The position numbers and the translations under genes were made by a program. The notes beneath the pieces were generated by a model. That model searched no databases. It was given only the letters and a program-made list of their open reading frames with translations, and was not told the DNA's origin. From an uncultured Mucispirillum sp. (GTDB lineage Bacteria > Chrysiogenota > Deferribacteres > Deferribacterales > Mucispirillaceae), in NCBI GenBank assembly GCA_944324495.1, contig CALUWN010000015.1, positions 1 through 39,738 on the forward strand: a DNA stretch of 39,738 nt. The letters are read 5' to 3'. This document shows positions 7,140-32,952 of the stretch, one piece after another. Numbering within the stretch: position 1 is the stretch's first letter; every line of letters begins with the position of its first letter.

Positions 7140-8039
7140 ATGCAGATAAATTATCGTAAGATAAAACTGACGTTATTTTTTGAAAAGAAGATAAAAATTA
7201 ATATCCCTTTTGTTTATGTATTTCGCTCTGTTTTAGGTAATGAACTGCATTATCTTTCCTGCGTATTAAAACAGCAGACATGTAATATATGCCCACTGCG
7301 TTTTAAATGTGCATACAGCGTTCTTTTTGAAAACCCTGTTGATAAAAATAATACTGTCATTACAGGCAGAGATAAAGCACCTTCGCCCTATATTATAAAG
7401 GCAGAATATTCTAAAAATGATGAAATAGATAAGGTTGATATAACTGCAATATTTATAGGATATGGTATAGATTATATTTCATATTTTTTACTGGCTGTAA
7501 AAAGAGCAGGTGAAAAAGGTATGTTTAAAGAAAGAATAAAATATAATATGGGCTATATTTCACACATTAATAACGAATACAGTTTAGAGTTTGATTTTAC
7601 AAGTCTGCCTGTTGAAACATACATTTTTGATGAAGGCTGCGGATTATCTCATAAAAAGCTTAATATTCAGTTAATAACCCCATTTAGATACAAAAAATCA
7701 GGCAAATATGAATCTAATATTAATATTAATGATATATTATTGGCTTCAAAACGCCGCCTTGATATGCTTTCAAACTTTTATGGGGATAAAAGTATAACTC
7801 CAAAATTGACTTTTATAGAAAACAGTAAAATAATAGAAAGCAATCTTTCTTGGCAGGACAGCTCAAGATATTCACGCAGGCAGGATACAAGTATGAAAAT
7901 AGGTGGTATTATAGGCTATATAATTGTGGAGGCTGATTTTTCACAGCAGCATTTATCACTACTTGAAGCTGCAAAATTATTTAATATAGGAAAAAATGTG
8001 TCATTTGGTTTAGGGCATATAGATTATGAGGAAATATAA
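7140..8039 (+). CDS. cas6: Cas6 pre-crRNA endoribonuclease
   Basis: Cuts the CRISPR transcript within repeats to make crRNAs for the Csm complex. The 299-aa protein is a RAMP of usual Cas6 size. It carries a cysteine cluster (C41, C48, C51, C57; CNICPLRFKC) seen in many type III-linked Cas6 proteins of the longer kind. The C-terminus has the glycine-rich loop (NIGKNVSFGLGHIDYEEI) of the Cas6_C family. It is first in the operon, after AAAAAGG (7127-7133). Its stop codon overlaps the Cas10 start by one base (TAATG at 8037-8041), implying translational coupling. The catalytic residue cannot be named with confidence, as Cas6 active sites vary. Confidence 0.85.
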   Translation: MQINYRKIKLTLFFEKKIKINIPFVYVFRSVLGNELHYLSCVLKQQTCNICPLRFKCAYSVLFENPVDKNNTVITGRDKAPSPYIIKAEYSKNDEIDKVDITAIFIGYGIDYISYFLLAVKRAGEKGMFKERIKYNMGYISHINNEYSLEFDFTSLPVETYIFDEGCGLSHKKLNIQLITPFRYKKSGKYESNININDILLASKRRLDMLSNFYGDKSITPKLTFIENSKIIESNLSWQDSSRYSRRQDTSMKIGGIIGYIIVEADFSQQHLSLLEAAKLFNIGKNVSFGLGHIDYEEI

Positions 8040-10387
8040 TGGATAATGCAGGCAATACAAAATCTAAAGCAAGTGTTTTTGCGATAGTTATAAATCTGCG
8101 TATTATAAGCAGGCTTTATGGTATAATTTTCAAAGAAAGTAATATAGAAAAAATTTATAGTTCATTTTTTGAGCAAATAAACAGTAAAACAAATTTTCTC
8201 ACTGATTTATGGCAGGAATGTGGGTTTACCTGCCCCATGAGCATTTTTGGCGATGATTTAAAAGAAATAGAAGCAAAAGCTATAAAGGCAGCAAAGGGTA
8301 TGGAAGATAAAAGTGATTATATTGCTGATTTTAATATAACAAAACAGCTTCCACACCTAATTAGCAGTGCCACACTTTTAGATAAAAAGCGTGAAAATGT
8401 TTTTTTGCCTGTTGAAAAATTTAGTAATACTGCAATTTTTCCTGTAAAAGAGAATTATAAATTAGAAGAAATAGAAGAAAAATATAAAAATATATATAAT
8501 GAACTAATTTCAGATATAGTATGTGTATTAAATAATGCGGAAAAAGATAAATCCATACTTATGACAAGTGCTGCTTTAGATTCTATATTTTTTAAATATT
8601 TATCAAATATACCAGCATTTTATACAGGTGATAATGATGATATATCACTATATGAATATGCAAAAGTAGTATCAGCCTTTTCAAGTGCAGGGTATATGCA
8701 AAAAGATGCTCTAAATGATAGCTTTGCATTAATTAGAGGTGATTTTTTCAGTATACAAAATTTTATATTTAATAAAGATGCAGCCAGCAAAAACCCTGCT
8801 AATTTATTAAGAGGCAAATCTTTTTATGTATCTTTAATGTCTGATATTGCTTCACTTAATGTACTTGAAACACTTAATCTGCCGTATTTTAATTTAATGA
8901 TGAACGCAGCAGGTCAGTTTGTAATATTAAGTGATTATAATGATGAAATAAGTCAAAAATTACTTGCATTAAAAAATGAAATGGAAACATGGCTTTACAA
9001 TAAGTACTATGCTTCAGTTTCCATGGGGCTTTCTGTGTTTGCCTGCAGTATAGATGATTTTAATTATTCAAACTTTAATCTACTTTTATTAAAACTTTTG
9101 GGAGAAAAAGAAAAATCAAAAGCAACAAGATTTAATTTAATAGAAGATAAACCATATATTTTTACAGATTATTATAAACATTTTACAGAAAACAGTAGTA
9201 AATGCGAATATTGTGGCATTATGCCAAAAAAAGATAATAAATTTTCAGCCTGCGATAACTGCCTGCTGTACTTGCAGTATGGTCAAAATTTAAGAACAAG
9301 CAAATATTTATATATAATAAAAAATGAAAATGGTGAATTCTTTAATAAATACAACATAAGTTTTGATGAAAATAAAAAGGCAGATGCTTTTATGCGAATG
9401 CATATAGATATGCAGGATAAGGCAGATAAAAGTTATAATTATCAAGATGTTATACATTATAGAAGCTATGTGGCAGTAGATAATGATGTAATACGCTCTT
9501 TTGCAGATATTGCTGCATACAGCATAGATAAAAGTGGTGCAAATATTTTGGCAGTATTAAAAGCAGATGTAGATAATCTAGGGTTAATATTTGCATGTGG
9601 GCTTTCTGAAAAAGACAGTAACGGTAAAGTAACAAGGGGCAGGCTTACTTTTTCAAGAACCAATATGCTTTCCCGTTTAATACACAACTTTTTTTCATAT
9701 CATTTATATATGATTATGCAGGAAAAAAAGTTAAATATATATACAGTTTTTGCTGGAGGGGACGATTTATTTCTTGTGGGCAGGTATGATGAAGTAATAA
9801 AGACTGCAAAAATCTTATATGATGAATTTGAAAGGTTTACAAATAAAAATAAAGAGATAACAATTTCAGCAGGCATAGGTTTTTATAATGACGGCACACC
9901 AGTATGGTTTATGGCAGAGGATGCAGAAAGCAGGCTTGAAAATGCAAAACATTTTAGAGCAAAAGGGCAGGAAAAAAGTATTATAAAAGGTAATATAAGC
10001 CTTCTTTATGGCGAATATAAATATGCAACTTTTTTAAAGGAATACGCAGTTTTTCAAGAAAAAATCAAATATTATGATAAACATATAGATGTATCACATG
10101 GGCTTTTATATAAACTTATGAACTACTGCGATATGAAAATAGAATATGAAAAAGAGCAAAAAGATAATATGGGAAATATTAATTTAAATAACTTGTTATG
10201 GCGTTCTCATTTTCATTATGTATTGGGAAAATTAAGTGTAAAAAATATTCCAAAAGGTGTAAATGCGAAAGAGTTTACAGATAGTATTAAAAATGAACTA
10301 TCAATATATTTTACTGATTTTATAGAAAATAATGCTGTATTACTTAAAACTTTCACAGCATTACAGCTATATAATACAAAAAAATAA
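8039..10387 (+). CDS. cas10: Cas10/Csm1, cyclic oligoadenylate synthase with degenerate HD domain
   Basis: Large subunit of the type III-A effector. The 782-aa protein shows a first Palm domain (LIRGDFFSIQNFIF, about 226-240), a zinc-binding pair CEYC...CDNC (C389, C392, C405, C408), and a second Palm with ADVDNLG near 510 and AGGDDLF (G573-D576), the cyclase motif. The N-terminus lacks the HD pair expected of the Cas10 nuclease. The family segment DISLYDHxK appears here as DISLYEYAK near residue 201-209, so both the Asp and the His are replaced. I infer that ssDNA cleavage is lost and cOA synthesis kept. It overlaps cas6 by one base and precedes csm2 by 15 bp. III-A rather than III-B follows from the csm2-5 neighbours. 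Confidence 0.92.
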   Translation: MDNAGNTKSKASVFAIVINLRIISRLYGIIFKESNIEKIYSSFFEQINSKTNFLTDLWQECGFTCPMSIFGDDLKEIEAKAIKAAKGMEDKSDYIADFNITKQLPHLISSATLLDKKRENVFLPVEKFSNTAIFPVKENYKLEEIEEKYKNIYNELISDIVCVLNNAEKDKSILMTSAALDSIFFKYLSNIPAFYTGDNDDISLYEYAKVVSAFSSAGYMQKDALNDSFALIRGDFFSIQNFIFNKDAASKNPANLLRGKSFYVSLMSDIASLNVLETLNLPYFNLMMNAAGQFVILSDYNDEISQKLLALKNEMETWLYNKYYASVSMGLSVFACSIDDFNYSNFNLLLLKLLGEKEKSKATRFNLIEDKPYIFTDYYKHFTENSSKCEYCGIMPKKDNKFSACDNCLLYLQYGQNLRTSKYLYIIKNENGEFFNKYNISFDENKKADAFMRMHIDMQDKADKSYNYQDVIHYRSYVAVDNDVIRSFADIAAYSIDKSGANILAVLKADVDNLGLIFACGLSEKDSNGKVTRGRLTFSRTNMLSRLIHNFFSYHLYMIMQEKKLNIYTVFAGGDDLFLVGRYDEVIKTAKILYDEFERFTNKNKEITISAGIGFYNDGTPVWFMAEDAESRLENAKHFRAKGQEKSIIKGNISLLYGEYKYATFLKEYAVFQEKIKYYDKHIDVSHGLLYKLMNYCDMKIEYEKEQKDNMGNINLNNLLWRSHFHYVLGKLSVKNIPKGVNAKEFTDSIKNELSIYFTDFIENNAVLLKTFTALQLYNTKK

Positions 10388-10402
10388 CAGGGGAGGTTAT
10401 GT

Positions 10403-10861
10403 ATGAATAATCCATATGGTAAACATGGAGGGGATATTAACCATAATAATAAAAATTCTAATAATGAAACACAGAGTATTAAACCATACTTAAAGGAACT
10501 AACAAAAGATAATTTAGCAGATATGATTAATAAAAATGCAGATGTTATTGCAAAAATAATTAAGCAGGGCTCAAATTCATATACTCAGGTAAGGAAATTT
10601 TATGATGAGCTTTTATCATTACAGAAGCAGGCTCAAGGAAATCAAAATAATGTTGATAGTGGAGAATTTGAAAAAATGCTGCCTATGATATATTTAGTAA
10701 AATCTAAAGCAGCCTATGCAAGGGGCAAGAAGAATATTAATGATAACCTGCTTTCTTTTTTAGTATTTTATATTGAAAAAATAAAAAATATAGAGCAGTT
10801 GAAATATTTTATGCTGTATTTTGAAGCTATTTTAGGCTATTTAAGGCTTCATTCAAAATAA
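10403..10861 (+). CDS. csm2: Csm2, small subunit of the type III-A complex
   Basis: Small helical protein forming the inner filament of the Csm complex. It has 152 aa: an Asn/His-rich, disordered-looking N-terminus of about 30 residues, then an all-helical body ending in YLVKSKAAYARGKK...FYIEKIKN...YFEAILGYLRLH, the usual Csm2 C-terminal pattern. A strong site GGGGAGG (10390-10396) precedes ATG 10403. Position between cas10 and csm3 is the standard order. Confidence 0.88.
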   Translation: MNNPYGKHGGDINHNNKNSNNETQSIKPYLKELTKDNLADMINKNADVIAKIIKQGSNSYTQVRKFYDELLSLQKQAQGNQNNVDSGEFEKMLPMIYLVKSKAAYARGKKNINDNLLSFLVFYIEKIKNIEQLKYFMLYFEAILGYLRLHSK

Positions 10862-10874
10862 GGGGGATAATAAA

Positions 10875-11591
10875 ATGTCATTTAAAATAATACAATATAA
10901 TATAGAAATTATAGTAAAAACAGGGCTTTTTATTGGTACAGGTAATACCAGTATGAGAATTGGTGGGGTAGATAATGAGTTTATACGAAACCCAGCAAAT
11001 AATGAGCCTTATATTCCCGGAAGTAGTTTAAAGGGGAAAATACGTAGTTTATTAGAATATGATGCAGGGCTTTTAGCTGTATCTAGAGATGGCGGTGTAT
11101 TAAATGCAAAAAAAGTGCAGTATGCAAAAAGCCAGAATATAGGCAATACTAAAAATATGGAAAATATTTTAAAACTTTTTGGCACAGCAGCAGATAATAA
11201 ATCATCAAAAGAAAATAATATTGTAGAACAAATAAATTATGGTATTACAAGGCTTTCTTTTTCTGATTTAAATCTGAAAAAAAGTAATAATGAATACACT
11301 GAAATATTTGAAGTTAAACCAGAAACAGCCATAGATAGAAGCACTGGGAAAGCTCATGATGGTGCATTAAGATTTACAGAAAGGGTTGTTGCAGGCACAA
11401 AATTTATAGGGACTATTACTTTAAAAGTGTTTGCAGAAAAACCGCATTATGATAATGAAGAAGAATTTGAAAATATGCTAAAAAGAGGGTTGCAGCTTTT
11501 AGAATTAGATGCACTAGGTGGCTCATCCAGCCGTGGTTATGGCAAAGTTTCCATTATATTTGACGGAAAAGAACTACCAGAACTCGCGTAG
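10875..11591 (+). CDS. csm3: Csm3, backbone RAMP and target-RNA nuclease of the type III-A complex
   Basis: Repeated backbone subunit (Cas7 group) that cuts target RNA at 6-nt steps. In its 238 aa, GLFIGTGNTSMRIGGVDNEF places an Asp at residue 33, the position of the known catalytic Asp of Csm3, so RNA cleavage should be intact. YIPGSSLKGKIRSLLE and ALDRSTGKAHDGALRFTE-like segments (residues about 155-172) are family hallmarks, as is the C-terminal LGGSSSRGYGKV. It starts 13 bp after csm2 with AGGGGG upstream. Confidence 0.95.
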   Translation: MSFKIIQYNIEIIVKTGLFIGTGNTSMRIGGVDNEFIRNPANNEPYIPGSSLKGKIRSLLEYDAGLLAVSRDGGVLNAKKVQYAKSQNIGNTKNMENILKLFGTAADNKSSKENNIVEQINYGITRLSFSDLNLKKSNNEYTEIFEVKPETAIDRSTGKAHDGALRFTERVVAGTKFIGTITLKVFAEKPHYDNEEEFENMLKRGLQLLELDALGGSSSRGYGKVSIIFDGKELPELA

Positions 11592-11619
11592 AAAATTATA
11601 AATCTAATAGAGAATAAAT

Positions 11620-12579
11620 ATGGAATATACATATATTAGTTTAGATATAAAGCCTGTATCATCATTTGCTAGTGAGCTTTCATCAGATACTTTTTTTGGT
11701 CAGATTTGCTATATGCTTTATATGCAGGGATACGATTTAGATGAATATTTAAAGGATTATGAAAATGACCCATTTTTTGTAATATCAGATTGTTTCCCTA
11801 TGGGTTATATTTCTATCCAGCAGATGCCTGTAAAACCAGTATCAGAAATAAATATTTATAATCTTGCTGCAAGAAAAGCATCAAAAAATAAAAATAAAAT
11901 AAAATTAGATGAGCTTATTAGTAAGGGCATATTAACTAGAGAAAAAAACGGGCTTATAAAAGAAACTGTTGATATTTCAAATATGCAGGATAGTTGGAAA
12001 AAATATAAATATGATGTGATAAAAGCTCATATCAATAGATATACAGGCACAACTTTAAATGAAGAATTTGCTCCATATTCTAATATTGAATACAGCTATA
12101 TGGCAAAAAAGGGAGAGTTTTATTTTAGGCTATATTTATATGTAAAAGAAGGTTTTGATGACAATATTATTATTTCAGCTATAGAAAATATAGGCCAAAC
12201 TGGTTATGGCAGTAAAACTTCAACTGGTAAAGGTTTTTTTAAAGTTTATAGAAATGAAAATATCAAGATAAATACAGAAAATAAAGATTCATTTATTTTA
12301 TTAAGTAATACTGTAATTTCAGGAATGGATAAATTTACTAACAAAATGTATTACACACCTGTAACCCGCTTTGGCAAACATGGGATATTAACAGAAAAAG
12401 GCACACCTTTTAAAAATCCATTTGTAATGGCAACAAGTGGAGCATTAGCATTAAATGTAAAAAATGAATGTTTTAATAAAGCCTATGTGGGTAAAGGAGT
12501 ATTTGGATTATCACATCACAAAAATGCAGTATCTCAAGGCTATGGGCTATATATTCCCTTAAAATTGGTGGAAGAATAA
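11620..12579 (+). CDS. csm4: Csm4, crRNA 5'-tag-binding RAMP
   Basis: Cas5-group subunit that holds the crRNA 5' handle and contacts Cas10. The 319-aa protein begins with TYISLDIKPVSSFASELSSDTFFGQICYML, where the S-DT-FGQ pattern is typical of Csm4. GQTGYGSKTSTGKGFFKVY near 190-210 is its glycine-rich loop, and the C-terminal GVFGLSHHKNAVSQGYGLYIPL fits the family. A 28-bp gap separates it from csm3, and csm5 starts one base after its stop. Confidence 0.9.
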   Translation: MEYTYISLDIKPVSSFASELSSDTFFGQICYMLYMQGYDLDEYLKDYENDPFFVISDCFPMGYISIQQMPVKPVSEINIYNLAARKASKNKNKIKLDELISKGILTREKNGLIKETVDISNMQDSWKKYKYDVIKAHINRYTGTTLNEEFAPYSNIEYSYMAKKGEFYFRLYLYVKEGFDDNIIISAIENIGQTGYGSKTSTGKGFFKVYRNENIKINTENKDSFILLSNTVISGMDKFTNKMYYTPVTRFGKHGILTEKGTPFKNPFVMATSGALALNVKNECFNKAYVGKGVFGLSHHKNAVSQGYGLYIPLKLVEE

Positions 12580-12580
12580 T

Positions 12581-13645
12581 ATGAATAAAATATTAAATTT
12601 TAAAATGCAGACTATATCACCTTTGCATATTTCAAGCGGGCAGGAAATTGAGCCATATTCATATATTGTAAAAGCAGAAAATAATGGAGATAAAAGGCTT
12701 TATTATATAAACCTATATGAATTTATATCATTAATTAACCAAGATGAAAGGCAAAAATTAACACAAATATTATCAGAAATAAATGCAAATAACAGCTTAA
12801 ATAACGCTGTGGAATTTGTATATAATCTTTTTAATAAAGAAAAACACAGTGAAGCTGTGCTTCTTGAATATAAGATAACAAACAAATTTTATGAAGAATA
12901 TAAAAAAAGATTAGATAATAAAAATATTGCAAACATTATGCTTTATACCTGTATAAAGGATGGTAATTATAAGCCTTATATCCCCGGTTCTTCTATTAAA
13001 GGTGCAGTAAAAAGGGCATTTGAATATAAGCATGATGCAAGTGGATACAGTAGCGAACTTTTAAAAATGAAAGTAGGTGATAGAGCTGAAAAAGACCCAT
13101 TTAAAATGTTAAAAATAGCAGATTTATATTCTGATAATCTATCAATAAATATAGGCTATGTGAGAGATTTTGCCTTAAATACATTAAATATTGCAGATAT
13201 GCGTATAAATATAATGGCAGAATTTATAAGTAATACAGTAGATTTTGACTTATGCTTAAATATAAATAATAACTATAATAAAGCAGGTATTTATAAAAGT
13301 GAATTATTTGAAAAAGATTTTGAAAGTGAAAAAAGTGTTATATTATTTTTAAATGAATATTTTAAAAGACCATTAGAGCGGGAAATAAAATATTTTTCAG
13401 ATAACGGCAAAAATAACAGCAATGAATTTATACAAAATTATAAAAGATTAAAAGATATGTATGGTGAAAATATTGCATTTATAAATATTGGAAAATTTGG
13501 TGGCAAGCTTATAAAAGTAAACAGGGAAAACGATAAAAGCATTTATGCACGAAGATATTATACAGAAATACCAGAAAAAAATATAAAAGAATATAAGCTT
13601 TCACAAGTTATGCCTATTGGCTGGGTGGCAGTATATATTCCATAA
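12581..13645 (+). CDS. csm5: Csm5, crRNA 3'-end RAMP subunit
   Basis: Caps the Csm filament and is linked to crRNA 3' maturation. The 354-aa protein opens with NFKMQTISPLHISSGQEIEP and contains YIPGSSIKGAVKRAFEY (about 132-148), both standard Csm5 motifs. It ends with LSQVMPIGWVAVYIP, the usual tail. It begins one base after csm4 and is last in the operon. No clear terminator follows; the next promoter is at 13683. Confidence 0.92.
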   Translation: MNKILNFKMQTISPLHISSGQEIEPYSYIVKAENNGDKRLYYINLYEFISLINQDERQKLTQILSEINANNSLNNAVEFVYNLFNKEKHSEAVLLEYKITNKFYEEYKKRLDNKNIANIMLYTCIKDGNYKPYIPGSSIKGAVKRAFEYKHDASGYSSELLKMKVGDRAEKDPFKMLKIADLYSDNLSINIGYVRDFALNTLNIADMRINIMAEFISNTVDFDLCLNINNNYNKAGIYKSELFEKDFESEKSVILFLNEYFKRPLEREIKYFSDNGKNNSNEFIQNYKRLKDMYGENIAFINIGKFGGKLIKVNRENDKSIYARRYYTEIPEKNIKEYKLSQVMPIGWVAVYIP

Positions 13646-14389: not shown

Positions 14390-14426
14390 ATATGATATAA
14401 AAAAAGATAAGACCTGATTATAAGGG

Positions 14427-14499
14427 CGAGCGTTGTATGCGAGGTGAGATTTTCCCAAGTGAGTAGCGAGGAAATAGAAAATCTCGCTGGGAAGGGTTA
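14427..14499 (+). repeat. stem-loop element module A inside the first CRISPR repeat
   Basis: A single A module directly after TATAAGGG of a truncated repeat. It begins CGAGCG, has a perfect 9-bp stem (14446-14454 with 14477-14485) and ends near GCTGGG at 14491. The next CRISPR-repeat sequence resumes near 14510. The right boundary is uncertain. Confidence 0.6.
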
Positions 14500-14673
14500 T
14501 AGACAACTAGAGACCTGATTATAAGGGATTGAAACCTTAAAGAGTTCAAATCAGAGTTATCTTCTTTTTTTGAGTTGCATTGATAGACCTGACTATAAGG
14601 GATTGAAACTCAACTATTACTGATAAGTTAGCAAATATTTTATAAGTTGCATTGATAGACCTGACTATAAGGG

Positions 14674-14961
14674 CGAGCGACTTTTGCGAGGACACTTTTT
14701 CCCGACTGAATAAGGAGGAAACAGAAAAAGTGGCTGGGGAGCGTTGTATGCGAGGTGAGATTTTCCCGAGTGAGTAGCGAGGAAATAGAAAATCTCGCTG
14801 GCGAGCGACTTTTGCTCCGCTTCGCTCCGAGTACAGAAAACGGCTTGCCATTAATATGGGCAAGACCCCGTTTTTGCGAGGACACTTTTTTCCGACTGAA
14901 TAAGGAGGAAACAAAAAAAGTGGCTGGAGAGCATACAGATAATGCTAAGCTTTATGAATTT
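14674..14961 (+). repeat. 288-bp composite stem-loop element (C-A-B-C-tail) inserted in a CRISPR repeat
   Basis: Flanked by an 8-bp direct repeat TATAAGGG (14666-14673 and 14962-14969). Modules in order: C (stem 14693-14701/14724-14732), A (14757-14765/14788-14796), B (hairpin about 14837-14874 around CTTGCC/GGGCAAG), C (14883-14891/14914-14922), and a tail ending TATGAATTT. Modules A and C are homologous but with different, perfectly paired stems. The whole is richer in G+C than its surroundings. It carries no transposase and resembles a palindromic MITE or REP-type element. The same A-B-C-tail order recurs at 21155-21380. Confidence 0.75.
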
Positions 14962-15123
14962 TATAAGGGATTGAAACATTTCTCCAGAACCTCTTTTTTA
15001 TTCAGGAAATTGGTTGCATTACTAGAGACCTGACTATAAGGGATTATTTAAAAATTGCAAAAATATAAAATATATGTTACAAGATAACTGTTTAGTTTTT
15101 TTCTAATTAACAGGGGTTTTATT

Positions 15124-16746: not shown

Positions 16747-17727
16747 TTATTTAAAATTTTCATTTCTAGCTAATATTTCTTCTTTTATTTTACTGCAAAT
16801 ATCTGCAGGGGATAATGCTTTTACATATTTTCCCAGCTGTAAAATAGATGATATAATTTCTTCCTGTTGGTTTTTATTGTAATATATTTCCATAAATATT
16901 TTATTATCTTTTTCATAAATTATCCTATCATACAATGCAAATTTATATGTAGCACGTTGAAAGGCATTATCTATATTATCTATTTCTATTATAACAGGTT
17001 TATGTAACCGTAAATTATCTATGGTATTTTTAATATTATGCTCTATCTGTTTATATTTTTTTATATCATCATTGATATTAACATTTTCTATTATTAATAT
17101 AGGTATTGTATGTATTGATTTATTTTTGTCATTAAAATAAACAAGGTGTAATGAATCATCTTCCTGCCTGTATTCTATTTTATAAGGCACTATATTTTCA
17201 ATAACAACTTTTTCCTTTGTATCTGTTTTGTTAATGCTGATAGTAATATATTTTTTATTTTCTATTGCACTTATTATTTTATTAAAAATTTCTTTTTCAT
17301 TATCAGTATATATATGTGGTGCTTCATTATTTAGTTTTTGAATATGTATTTCTTTATTTGATAAAATATATGGAAGATTATTAGTATTTTCTAAATCATT
17401 AATAAGCATATTTATAGTTTTTTTATCAAGAAATAAGAAAGTTTTATTATCTTGGAGTATATCATAAAGCCAAGCTCTTTCTGCTTTTGTAAGCCTTGCT
17501 ATAACAGGGTTATTATATACTGGGATTAAATGATTTTTTTCATTTTTATAAAATACGCAGTTATTATTTTTAATTACATATTTTTTTGTCTCAGTAAATG
17601 ATTTTGTTTTATTAAAAAACTGCAATATTTTATATACACTTAAACTATTATTACTTGATAAAACAGTATTAATATAGTTAATTAAATATGTAAAATCTTT
17701 ATTTTTATATTTATTAAATAAGTCCAT
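16747..17727 (-). CDS. WYL-domain protein, probable transcriptional regulator (second of pair)
   Basis: A 326-aa protein with weak N-terminal helices and a C-terminal WYL-like region: IENKKYITISINK and IVPYKIEYRQEDDSLHLVYFNDKNKSIHTIPILII (about 155-215) correspond to the WYL ligand-binding fold, and YNKNQQEEIISSILQLGKYVKALSPADICSKI is the WCX-type ending. WYL proteins commonly regulate CRISPR and other defence genes by binding nucleic acid or nucleotide ligands. Its ATG lies 14 bp inside the end of the upstream WYL gene, so the two are coupled. A clear helix-turn-helix is not obvious, so DNA binding is inferred. Confidence 0.7.
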   Translation of the reverse strand: MDLFNKYKNKDFTYLINYINTVLSSNNSLSVYKILQFFNKTKSFTETKKYVIKNNNCVFYKNEKNHLIPVYNNPVIARLTKAERAWLYDILQDNKTFLFLDKKTINMLINDLENTNNLPYILSNKEIHIQKLNNEAPHIYTDNEKEIFNKIISAIENKKYITISINKTDTKEKVVIENIVPYKIEYRQEDDSLHLVYFNDKNKSIHTIPILIIENVNINDDIKKYKQIEHNIKNTIDNLRLHKPVIIEIDNIDNAFQRATYKFALYDRIIYEKDNKIFMEIYYNKNQQEEIISSILQLGKYVKALSPADICSKIKEEILARNENFK

Positions 17728-19078
17728 ATTTTACCATTAGTTCATTATTATGTTCTTTTAATTTGTTATATAGAAAGGGATTAATATTTTTATCCACTTT
17801 TGCATATCTTCCAAATCCATTTATCCAAGGTATAAGTTCTAATTGGTTTGTGGTATTTATTTCATAAACTATAGTATTTTGGTTGATGTAATCAATAGTA
17901 CCTTTACGCTTTGTGGTACTTATTTTATTTATAATATTTTCTCTTATATTTTTATCTTCTGGCAGGTGAAATATTACTTTTACATAATCGCAGGTAATAG
18001 AATCTGCCACCATCCATTTATATTCAAAATCTTTTTCAAAATTAGTAGATAAATTTTTAGAAGAGAGAGTTTTATTTAATATTTTAAGTTCACTTATTTT
18101 ATCTATTCTTGCATTATAATATTCATTTGTATCTGGGTCAAAACCGTAACAATACTGGCGGTTATATTCATATTCTATAATAATTTTTTCAGGAACTACA
18201 TTTCTATTTACTATTTTATTATCCTGCTCTGTATAATTAAAATTAATTATATTTTTAGAATTTATGGCATCTAATATTTTCCAGCTAATATTATTATAGA
18301 TGGTATTATGCAGTGCTTTATTTTTAAATATAAAAATATTAGAATTAGGAATATAGTGCAGCTTTTCATCCTTTTTCGGATATGAATATATTAGGTATGA
18401 ATAAATAGTATGGGCAAGCATATATCCGGGAACAGAAAGTGGGTGTATATTGTAAAAAAATATAACCATCTCCAAAAGTTTATGAAGCAGCCCTAGATTA
18501 TCTATATTGTTAAGCACATCATTTGATATAATATATAACTGCCTTGCAGTAGTATTTTTTTCTGTTTTATATTTTTCAATAATACCCATATCCACTAAAT
18601 CATCAAAAATACTTTCCACGGTATATGTGGTATCAGTATTTTGTATTCTGTCATTTACATCGCCACATAAATCATTTTTATAAAAAGGTTTCGTCACATC
18701 GGTAATACCTTCCCCAGTGTCATCTATTATACTATTACTTGAAATCAACTGCATAAAGGTAAGATATATTAAAAGCTGCTTATGGGTATATGATGCATAT
18801 CTATATGTTTCTGCAAGATAGTTTATGGGGCATTTATACATATCTACTGAAAATGTGGTAACAGGTCTTTTTTCAATAGTTTTTTTATTAATATATATAG
18901 GTTCTATATAGTTTATTATTCGCCGTAGCATATCACGCTGGGAAGCAGGTAGTTTTTTATGCCTTATATCAAGGTTAATGGAAGGCTTTAAAAACATTTT
19001 GCTTATTATATTTTTAATAGATTCATAATTTTTACGTTCATTTTGAAACTGTTTTGTATTTTTTAATATTTTTTTCAT
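17714..19078 (-). CDS. WYL-domain protein, probable transcriptional regulator (first of pair)
   Basis: A 454-aa protein. Its middle has an extended helical region; the C-terminal part has the WYL pattern INSKNIINFNY...VVPEKIIIEYEYNRQYCYGFDPDTNEYYNARIDKISELKIL (about 268-330) followed by a WCX-like end (LELIPWINGFGRYAKV). The start has GGTGGTG just upstream. It is divergent from the outer-membrane protein gene and leads the two-gene operon with the shorter WYL gene. Paired WYL proteins beside defence islands often act as heteromeric regulators; the target here could be the Card1/membrane operon or the csm operon, which is inference. Confidence 0.75.
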   Translation of the reverse strand: MKKILKNTKQFQNERKNYESIKNIISKMFLKPSINLDIRHKKLPASQRDMLRRIINYIEPIYINKKTIEKRPVTTFSVDMYKCPINYLAETYRYASYTHKQLLIYLTFMQLISSNSIIDDTGEGITDVTKPFYKNDLCGDVNDRIQNTDTTYTVESIFDDLVDMGIIEKYKTEKNTTARQLYIISNDVLNNIDNLGLLHKLLEMVIFFYNIHPLSVPGYMLAHTIYSYLIYSYPKKDEKLHYIPNSNIFIFKNKALHNTIYNNISWKILDAINSKNIINFNYTEQDNKIVNRNVVPEKIIIEYEYNRQYCYGFDPDTNEYYNARIDKISELKILNKTLSSKNLSTNFEKDFEYKWMVADSITCDYVKVIFHLPEDKNIRENIINKISTTKRKGTIDYINQNTIVYEINTTNQLELIPWINGFGRYAKVDKNINPFLYNKLKEHNNELMVKYGLI

Positions 19079-19276
19079 ACACCACCATTATTTTATATAT
19101 AGCATAATTAATTGATAAATAAAATATTGATTTTTAAAATTTCTATATTTTTCTAACCTATTGATATATAAAAGATATTAATAAGTAATAAAATTTTTTA
19201 CAGGTTTTTTTCATACTTACTAATTTTAAATATTATATAAGCATTTTATTAAATTTTACAAAAGGGGTGAAAAATT

Positions 19277-19943
19277 ATGAAAAAGTTTTTATTTGTTTTA
19301 GTAGTATTATTAATGTTTTCTTCTGCTTATGCACAGCAAAAAAAATACGGCAGATACAGCAATATCGCAGGATAACAGAACTTGGATAAATGAGAAATAT
19401 AAAGAAATGTTTAAATATCCAATTACAGTTTCTGGTTATGGTTTTTTTAACTCTTCAGCACTTGCTGTTGGACGACTTAATGGTGTTACTTATGGTATAG
19501 ACAGCCATCTTGGCGGTGGTGGAGCAATTACAGCCAAAATTAGCTTTTTTAGATGGCTTGCACTTGCTTTAGATGTTTCATACAGCGGTGCAACAAGAAG
19601 TGAAGTAGGGGCAACTTCCACATTTGGCACATTTTTATTTAGCCCAATACTTATATTTCAAAGAGAAACTCTAAGAGGGCAGGCAGGTTTTGTGCCGTGG
19701 GTTGGTTTAGGTTTTTCTATTTCTAATAACTCTTGGACTATAAAAGGTGAAAATTATTATGGGCAGACATATACAGATTCTATTTCTAGAGGCGGATTTG
19801 GATTTATTTTTAATGCCGGTGTAAAATATAATATGAAAAATAATGTGTTTGTTGGTGTAAGGACAGATTATTCTGCATCTTCTTTTGAAAATACTACTAT
19901 GAATAACTGGCGTTTAGGGGTGGAAGCAGGATACAGATTTTAA
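19277..19943 (+). pseudogene. outer-membrane beta-barrel protein, signal peptide out of frame (phase-variable or frameshifted)
   Basis: ATG 19277, after AAAGGGGTGA, encodes a textbook signal peptide (MKKFLFVLVVLLMFSSAYA). That frame stops at 19371-19373. The body of the protein continues in the next frame up to 19943: Gly/aromatic-rich alternating strands, ending in GVEAGYRF with a terminal Phe, as for barrel proteins. The switch lies in an A8 run at 19338-19345; seven As would join the two parts into one protein of about 220 aa. An in-frame start at 19329 would lack a signal. Options are slipped-strand phase variation, a true pseudogene, a ribosomal slip at the A run, or a sequencing error. 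The barrel family is not identified. Confidence 0.7.
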
Positions 19944-20001: not shown

Positions 20002-20976
20002 ATGAGAAATAAACTAAAACAGCTTTCTTATGATTATAAAGATGTGATAAATGATGTGAAAACCAGTTTAAAACAGGCAAAGAAAATCACATTATCCCTT
20101 ATGCTTATATTCTTTATAACATTTTTAGTATTTTGTATAATAAATATAGCAAGGTTTGAATATATAATATTTGCTTTTATAGCATTTCTTATAGTTAGTA
20201 TGATATTGTATGCAGTATATAATTATATTAAAGAAAGCCAGTATATAATATATAAGAAAAAAATAATACCCGCTGTTTTATCTTTAATAGACAGCTCTTT
20301 AAGATACAGTATGTATAATGGGCATTCGCAAAAAGAATTTTTTTATTCAGATTTATACAGCAGAAATATAACTAATTTTATTTCAAAAGATATGATAAAA
20401 GGTATGGCAGGAAATACTGCCATAAAAATATCCCATATATTTGCAGAGCGGGTGGAAGAAATCCGCAGACATAATTTTAATGATGATGATTTTAATAGAC
20501 ATAGTCAGCAGGTGAAATATCGCCATTATACAGTATTTTCAGGTGTATTTATAAGCCTTGATTTTAATAAAGATTTTAAAGGCATAACAAAGCTGCATAC
20601 AAAGGGAAGAATATTTAATAACAGCGAAGCAGATATGGGAACATTATTTAGCAAATATGAAAAAATAACCTTAGAAAACCAAATGTTTAATAAGTATTTT
20701 GATGTTATAACAACAGATATACAAACAGCACTGTATATATTAACCCCTGCTTTTATGGAGCTTTTGCTAAATATGTATTTTAATTCAAATACAGAGCTTG
20801 GCATATGTTTTAGAAACGGTATTATGTTTATAGCTTTTGAAAATGCATGCTTTTTAGAACTGGGAAACATAAAAGATTATGAAAAAAATATAGAGCTTTT
20901 ATATATGGAAATAAAAAGCCTTTTAAATGTGGTAGATGAACTGCAGCTAAACAATAGAATATGGACTAAAGCATAA
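20002..20976 (+). CDS. DUF3137-family membrane protein
   Basis: A 324-aa protein with two adjacent transmembrane helices near 30-50 and 53-73. The soluble C-terminal domain matches DUF3137: VFSGVFISLDFNKDF (about 180-194), then ENQMFNKYFDVITTD and ILTPAFMELLLNM, and LGICFRNGIMFIAFE near 275. The function of the family is not known; it is anchored at the inner membrane with the domain probably in the cytoplasm. It follows the beta-barrel gene by 58 bp on the same strand and may share its transcript. Confidence 0.75.
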   Translation: MRNKLKQLSYDYKDVINDVKTSLKQAKKITLSLMLIFFITFLVFCIINIARFEYIIFAFIAFLIVSMILYAVYNYIKESQYIIYKKKIIPAVLSLIDSSLRYSMYNGHSQKEFFYSDLYSRNITNFISKDMIKGMAGNTAIKISHIFAERVEEIRRHNFNDDDFNRHSQQVKYRHYTVFSGVFISLDFNKDFKGITKLHTKGRIFNNSEADMGTLFSKYEKITLENQMFNKYFDVITTDIQTALYILTPAFMELLLNMYFNSNTELGICFRNGIMFIAFENACFLELGNIKDYEKNIELLYMEIKSLLNVVDELQLNNRIWTKA

Positions 20977-32934: not shown

Positions 32935-32952
32935 GGGGGATTTTCCCCCCCC
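32935..32952. terminator. possible terminator after the transglycosylase gene
   Basis: GGGGGA-TTTT-CCCCCCC forms a tight G/C hairpin between convergent genes; the T run after it is weak. It contains a C8 homopolymer. Confidence 0.4.

Follow-up and report, generated by a model that had tools for sequence, protein, structure and literature searches.

The small outer-membrane barrel gene at 19277-19943 of the window, by which we mean the whole 39,738-bp stretch of DNA analyzed (contig 15 of a 2.43-Mb, 62-contig Mucispirillum genome that is 98% complete), is out of frame with its own signal peptide across a run of eight A residues. The account we prefer, with slightly better than even confidence, is that ordinary slippage left this allele of a genuine small-barrel gene OFF, and that the A8 run is unlikely to have evolved as a high-rate switch. 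The switch-like tracts of the genus are probably instead its runs of 9 to 11 G or C residues, which lie in genes and in promoter spacers, those of sibling barrels included. The features of the locus are:

17714-19078, minus strand: divergent neighbor gene of 454 aa, whose ortholog adjoins the barrel ortholog L007 in genome G005.
19079-19276, plus strand: intergenic region, conserved with L007, in which the promoter and ribosome-binding site (GGGGTG, 19264-19269) probably lie.
19277-19375, plus strand: signal-peptide ORF, with ATG at 19277, 32 codons and the stop TAA at 19373-19375; L007 has this N-terminus in frame.
19314-19943, plus strand: open reading frame for the mature outer-membrane barrel, matching OMP_b-brl, with its first ATG at 19329 and its stop at 19943.
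19338-19345, plus strand: the A8 run, with a one-base offset between the two frames across it.
19422-19937, plus strand: part encoding residues 32-203 of the ORF that begins at 19329, where the eight beta strands are predicted.

The sequence-only reading of this DNA proposed a secreted surface protein split at its A run, and most of the particulars hold. A clear signal peptide does open the frame at 19277, and that frame does end in a stop, although two bases away from the position 19371 that was given for it. The eight A residues lie exactly where they were placed. The barrel does continue in the next frame, which scores 30.2 bits against the Pfam family OMP_b-brl (PF13505; curated cut-off 28.7) and is predicted to fold into eight strands (pLDDT 74.6 in the best model and 44-50 in the remaining four), with Ail, OmpA, OmpX and NspA as the best PDB fold matches of the predicted barrel. 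The two frames are open together only in the 59 bases from 19314 to 19372; the A8 run is the repeat tract of that zone, and its length sets the reading frame of the surface gene. In the assembled allele the signal peptide is out of frame with the barrel, so that little or no exported barrel protein would be made from it. Could the barrel frame start on its own? It opens only at 19314, and a start with a signal peptide of its own is absent from it. Further inactivating changes in the gene had been named as an observation that would speak against a switch; we looked for them and saw no second defect in the barrel frame through the stop at 19943, which also rules out a decayed pseudogene. Since the barrel carries no other defect, the OFF change looks recent and could in principle revert. 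The one-base shift of the barrel frame would have come from slippage at the A8 run, at the end of the signal peptide.

The gene appears to be a genuine member of a Mucispirillum family of small, eight-stranded outer-membrane barrels. Barrel relatives are present in all 10 Mucispirillum genomes searched (the window's own genome counted) and in none of 29 other relatives; a scan of genome contigs with query P0002 found no relative. By manual reading, the signal peptide is in frame at 28 of 30 family loci, the window's included among the 30; the other two are the window gene itself and L027. Because the same divergent neighbor gene stands beside the barrel in G005, a sister species, we take L007 to be the positional ortholog. 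L007 is in frame and alignable with the window in its upstream region, and it lacks an A run at the site; it runs off a contig end, and the comparison covers the part 5' of that end. The same kind of N-terminus in frame in L007 rules out a spurious signal peptide in the window. The tract itself is not conserved at the orthologous site, L007 being the only positional ortholog found.

How ordinary is a run of eight A or T residues in this genome? We compared run lengths in 439,738 bp of the window's genome (20 stretches and the window) with a first-order Markov expectation. A/T runs of exactly 8 numbered 115 where 121 were expected, and runs of 6 and 7 were above expectation. Runs of 9-10 are strongly avoided (8 found, 62 expected; for all runs of at least 9, 8 against about 72). 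Within the window itself there are 14 A8 runs, against 36 in shuffles. Since A/T runs of 8 match expectation and longer ones are avoided, A8 is a normal, tolerated length at the upper edge of the genome's range. Among the 123 A/T runs of at least 8 in the sample, 76 lie inside long ORFs, 27 outside them and 19, the window's A8 among these, at ORF edges; one lies where two long same-strand frames overlap.

These counts bear on two other explanations. One is that the run was misassembled, or its consensus miscalled, and that the gene is really in frame. Consensus errors do tend to fall in homopolymers. But the long A/T runs are not tied to broken genes, as that single overlap in 123 attests, and a home-made scan of the 439,738 bp for signal peptides whose body lies in another frame gave, by eye, only one clean split, that at 19277, among six raw candidates; intact signal-peptide ORFs numbered 67. 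We consider an error quite improbable. The other explanation is that RNA polymerase, or the ribosome, slips on A8, so that a fraction of the product would be in frame despite the DNA. Poly-A/T tracts are described as slippery for both in the part of PMC3711429 available to us, and the shortage of runs of at least 9 is what one would expect if they were costly. The ortholog and the paralogs, however, need no such step, and the 76 runs inside long ORFs are read straight through; we would rank expression by slippage as less probable still than an error.

Do runs of this length change often enough to act as switches? We compared G001 and G006, two species other than the window's, which share about 93% identity across 200 kb of alignment. 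Of 36 A/T8 sites, 5 had runs of unequal length in the two genomes; of 152 A/T7 sites, 2 did (p = 0.003). Among the A/T8 sites, the inequality was seen at 1 of 23 that are ORF-associated and at 4 of 13 others (95% interval of the latter 9-61%). Point divergence outside ORFs is 6.1%, so that A8 outside genes changes at about five times the per-site rate, a figure drawn from few sites (4 of 13) in neighboring species. The lengths of A/T runs in the two species are not independent (chi-square 27 on 9, 4 and 34 pairs), and therefore lengths of 7 and 8 do not flip freely between them. Such slow change, for these few sites in neighboring species, leans against rates of the contingency kind. Nor is mismatch repair missing: MutS and MutL domains were found in all seven Mucispirillum genomes that are at least 90% complete, and in 8 and 9, respectively, of all 10.

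The one ORF-associated A8/A7 difference between G001 and G006 is in a lipoprotein gene under a C9 promoter of the kind discussed below. In G006 (L225:11687-12415, also L103) the run is A8 and the gene is one frame of 227 aa; in G001 (L246:7150-7980) it is A7, with a stop in the signal-peptide frame shortly past the run, and a three-frame reading finds the rest of the body open in another frame. A barrel paralog in G005 (L027:775-1400) is likewise broken in its signal peptide, which loses the barrel frame at a T7 run, and the rest of its barrel stays open. With the window gene, three Mucispirillum surface-protein genes are thus broken at A/T runs near the N-terminus, and such repeated breaks would fit selection for switching. 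The lipoprotein and L027, together with the precedent of the Mycoplasma hominis adhesin gene vaa, count against the view that the window's allele is a product of ordinary slippage.

It is possible, then, that the A8 run slips often, that ON and OFF cells are kept together in the population, and that the assembly caught an OFF cell. This dedicated phase variation is what the sequence-only reading had in mind, and part of the set-up is in place: a surface gene is turned off by a one-base offset across a homopolymer at the end of its signal peptide, with the body intact. The A8/A7 frame difference in a lipoprotein of the same genus and the break at T7 in L027 speak for it, as do the excess of length changes at A/T8 over those at A/T7 and, so far as the excerpted sources go, the precedents of M. 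hominis vaa and Listeria monocytogenes inlA. Other parts of the case do not stand up as well. A8 is a background length, run lengths are mostly inherited between the sister species, the positional ortholog has no run, mismatch-repair genes are present, and the switch-like tracts of the genus are of G/C. We think a dedicated A8 switch unlikely, and because of the lipoprotein, L027 and the known poly-A switches we keep it as a serious rival to the ordinary slippage that we prefer.

The G/C runs present a different picture. In the 439,738-bp sample, G/C runs of 6 and 7 are scarce (3 against 20 expected, and 0 against 3.7), and there is a second peak at 9, with 8 runs of lengths 8-11 where 0.84 were expected. 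Frames are split at 3 of these 8 G/C runs and at 1 of the 123 A/T runs (Fisher p 0.0006). Over the whole genome there are 37 distinct G/C runs of at least 8 (merged by hand); we examined 36, leaving out the window's C8 at 32945, and 34 of the 36 are 9-11 long where about 0.9 would be expected when the sample expectation is scaled to the genome. Of the 36, 6 are promoter-type; on manual reading of the others, 10 break a frame (L125, two in L130, L170, L175, L179, L182, L183, L192 and L196), 9 are in frame (L121, one in L130, L173, L180, L184, L186, L190, L193 and L195) and 11 are elsewhere or unclear. One of the broken genes is in two pieces that match the two halves of a glycosyltransferase of family 8. 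Others encode a type ISP restriction enzyme, a type I specificity subunit, a sulfatase-family enzyme, an MBOAT acyltransferase, a methyltransferase and a PKD-domain lipoprotein; an arylsulfotransferase, a second MBOAT and an Ig-like lipoprotein are among those whose run is in frame. In the window's own genome, the lipoprotein genes L182 and L183 are split by G9 soon after the lipobox and would be close analogues of the window gene, having its architecture with a G run in place of the A run. To judge from these patterns, the contingency-switch candidates of the genus look like the G/C runs of at least 9, and they make a stronger case for phase variation than the A8 does.

Some further observations concern G/C runs more broadly. 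Between G001 and G006 they could be compared at six sites, all outside ORFs; five are equal at 9 and one is 10 against 9. Some other members of the order, G011, G013 and G024 among them, are likewise rich in C9 runs (overlapping counts), so that having long G/C runs is not peculiar to the genus. Very long C runs, of about 20 or more, occur in other genomes of the order (G013:C87, G024:C167). The window's only G/C run of 8, the C8 at 32945-32952, lies between convergent genes; in the region 32936-32952 it stands beside a GGGGATTTTCCCC inverted repeat, an arrangement more terminator-like than promoter-like.

A second setting of the C runs is a promoter module, TTGACA-WT-C9-RTGA-TATAAT, that precedes lipoproteins and barrels. 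The -35/poly-C/-10 pattern matches in 9 of the 10 Mucispirillum genomes, and a reversed control pattern matches at far fewer places. A tighter pattern matched 25 stretches among the contigs of 84,980 species, a search that may leave out the window's own genome; 23 of the stretches are named Mucispirillum, and the other two, L113 and L119, are labelled Armatimonadetes and Clostridia. The loci analyzed hold 54 distinct instances of the module, those two from outside Mucispirillum included; 39 of them have a C9 run and 34 a 15-nt spacer. An ORF follows in 51 instances, and by home-made rules 41 of these ORFs have a signal-peptide-like start, with a lipobox as well in 30 of the 41. The usual spacing between -35 and -10 is 17. 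Since a spacer of 15 nt is shorter than this, C9 may be a weak promoter state, in which case longer C runs would be stronger. Among the sibling barrels, L025, L026 and L028 have the module upstream, and a variant of it stands at L006. The window gene carries none: upstream of 19277 there is no poly-C run between -35 and -10, which rules out poly-C promoter control of this gene, and consensus promoter matches there are near shuffle expectation.

Two other observations on the window and its surroundings may be recorded here. Relatives of the gene downstream of the barrel (20002-20976) are found in two pieces in both G001 and G006 (L218/L221 and L219/L222), with the break near residues 203-206 in each genome, which suggests either a break common to the two genomes or two separate genes. 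At 14420-15045 a longer repeated element breaks into a set of degenerate CRISPR-like repeats (GACCTGAYTATAAGGGATTGAAAC), and the adjoining genes at 7140-13645 resemble a type III CRISPR locus.

What do these findings mean for the bacterium? The A8 allele alone is a modest finding, and its context is weightier. A genus-wide program of surface phase variation, with G9-G11 in genes, the C9 promoter module and slower A7/A8 switches that include the window gene, is a possibility that we entertain tentatively, judging it somewhat doubtful. If the G/C runs do switch, this gut bacterium would randomly vary its surface lipoproteins, barrels, glycan enzymes and restriction systems, with a bearing on persistence under immune and phage pressure, and some 30 loci in the genome, along with a simple promoter module, would be open to testing. 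There is also a general lesson, that a homopolymer frame break should be weighed against the genome's own spectrum of run lengths before it is called phase variation. In the literature searched we found no report of phase variation or homopolymers in Mucispirillum or Deferribacter, and none of the G/C-run repertoire described here; a term look-up in the available part of the M. schaedleri genome paper (PMC5285517) gave nothing relevant on switches.

How does the window gene compare with known systems? In M. hominis, the adhesin gene vaa has a poly-A switch of this length, with slippage at 10^-3 to 10^-4 and both ON and OFF forms seen in isolates, as given in the excerpt of PMC524362 at hand. 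The likeness lies in a surface gene with poly-A near its 5' end, where one length is in frame and its neighbors are out. Unlike vaa as that excerpt describes it, the window gene is known from one allele, its genus has mismatch-repair genes, and A/T8 changes slowly between sister species. In L. monocytogenes, a frameshift in a 5' poly(A) tract of inlA silences a surface protein, as measured in isolates and fusions, and 5' poly(A) or A/T runs are described as general sites of gene inactivation in prokaryotes (PMC2831843, in the portion available). The window gene resembles inlA, so far as that portion goes, in its 5' poly(A) and in a frame offset that would silence a surface gene, here read from comparison alone.

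For promoters the parallel is with Neisseria fetA and porA, where, according to the accessible sections of PMC5320596, a poly-C or poly-G switch lies in the promoter spacer. The sibling barrels and many lipoproteins of Mucispirillum likewise have C runs between -35 and -10, and in this the window gene, which has no C run in its spacer, stands apart. The Mucispirillum module, known from sequence alone, differs from fetA and porA as seen in those sections in standing at several loci per genome, mostly with C9 and a 15-nt spacer.

Contingency loci of the Campylobacter type have intragenic poly-G. Mucispirillum belongs to a different phylum, and the window gene is not among its G-run loci. The genus nevertheless resembles that type in carrying G9-G11 in glycosyltransferase, acyltransferase, methyltransferase, restriction and surface-protein genes, some of them in frame and some broken.
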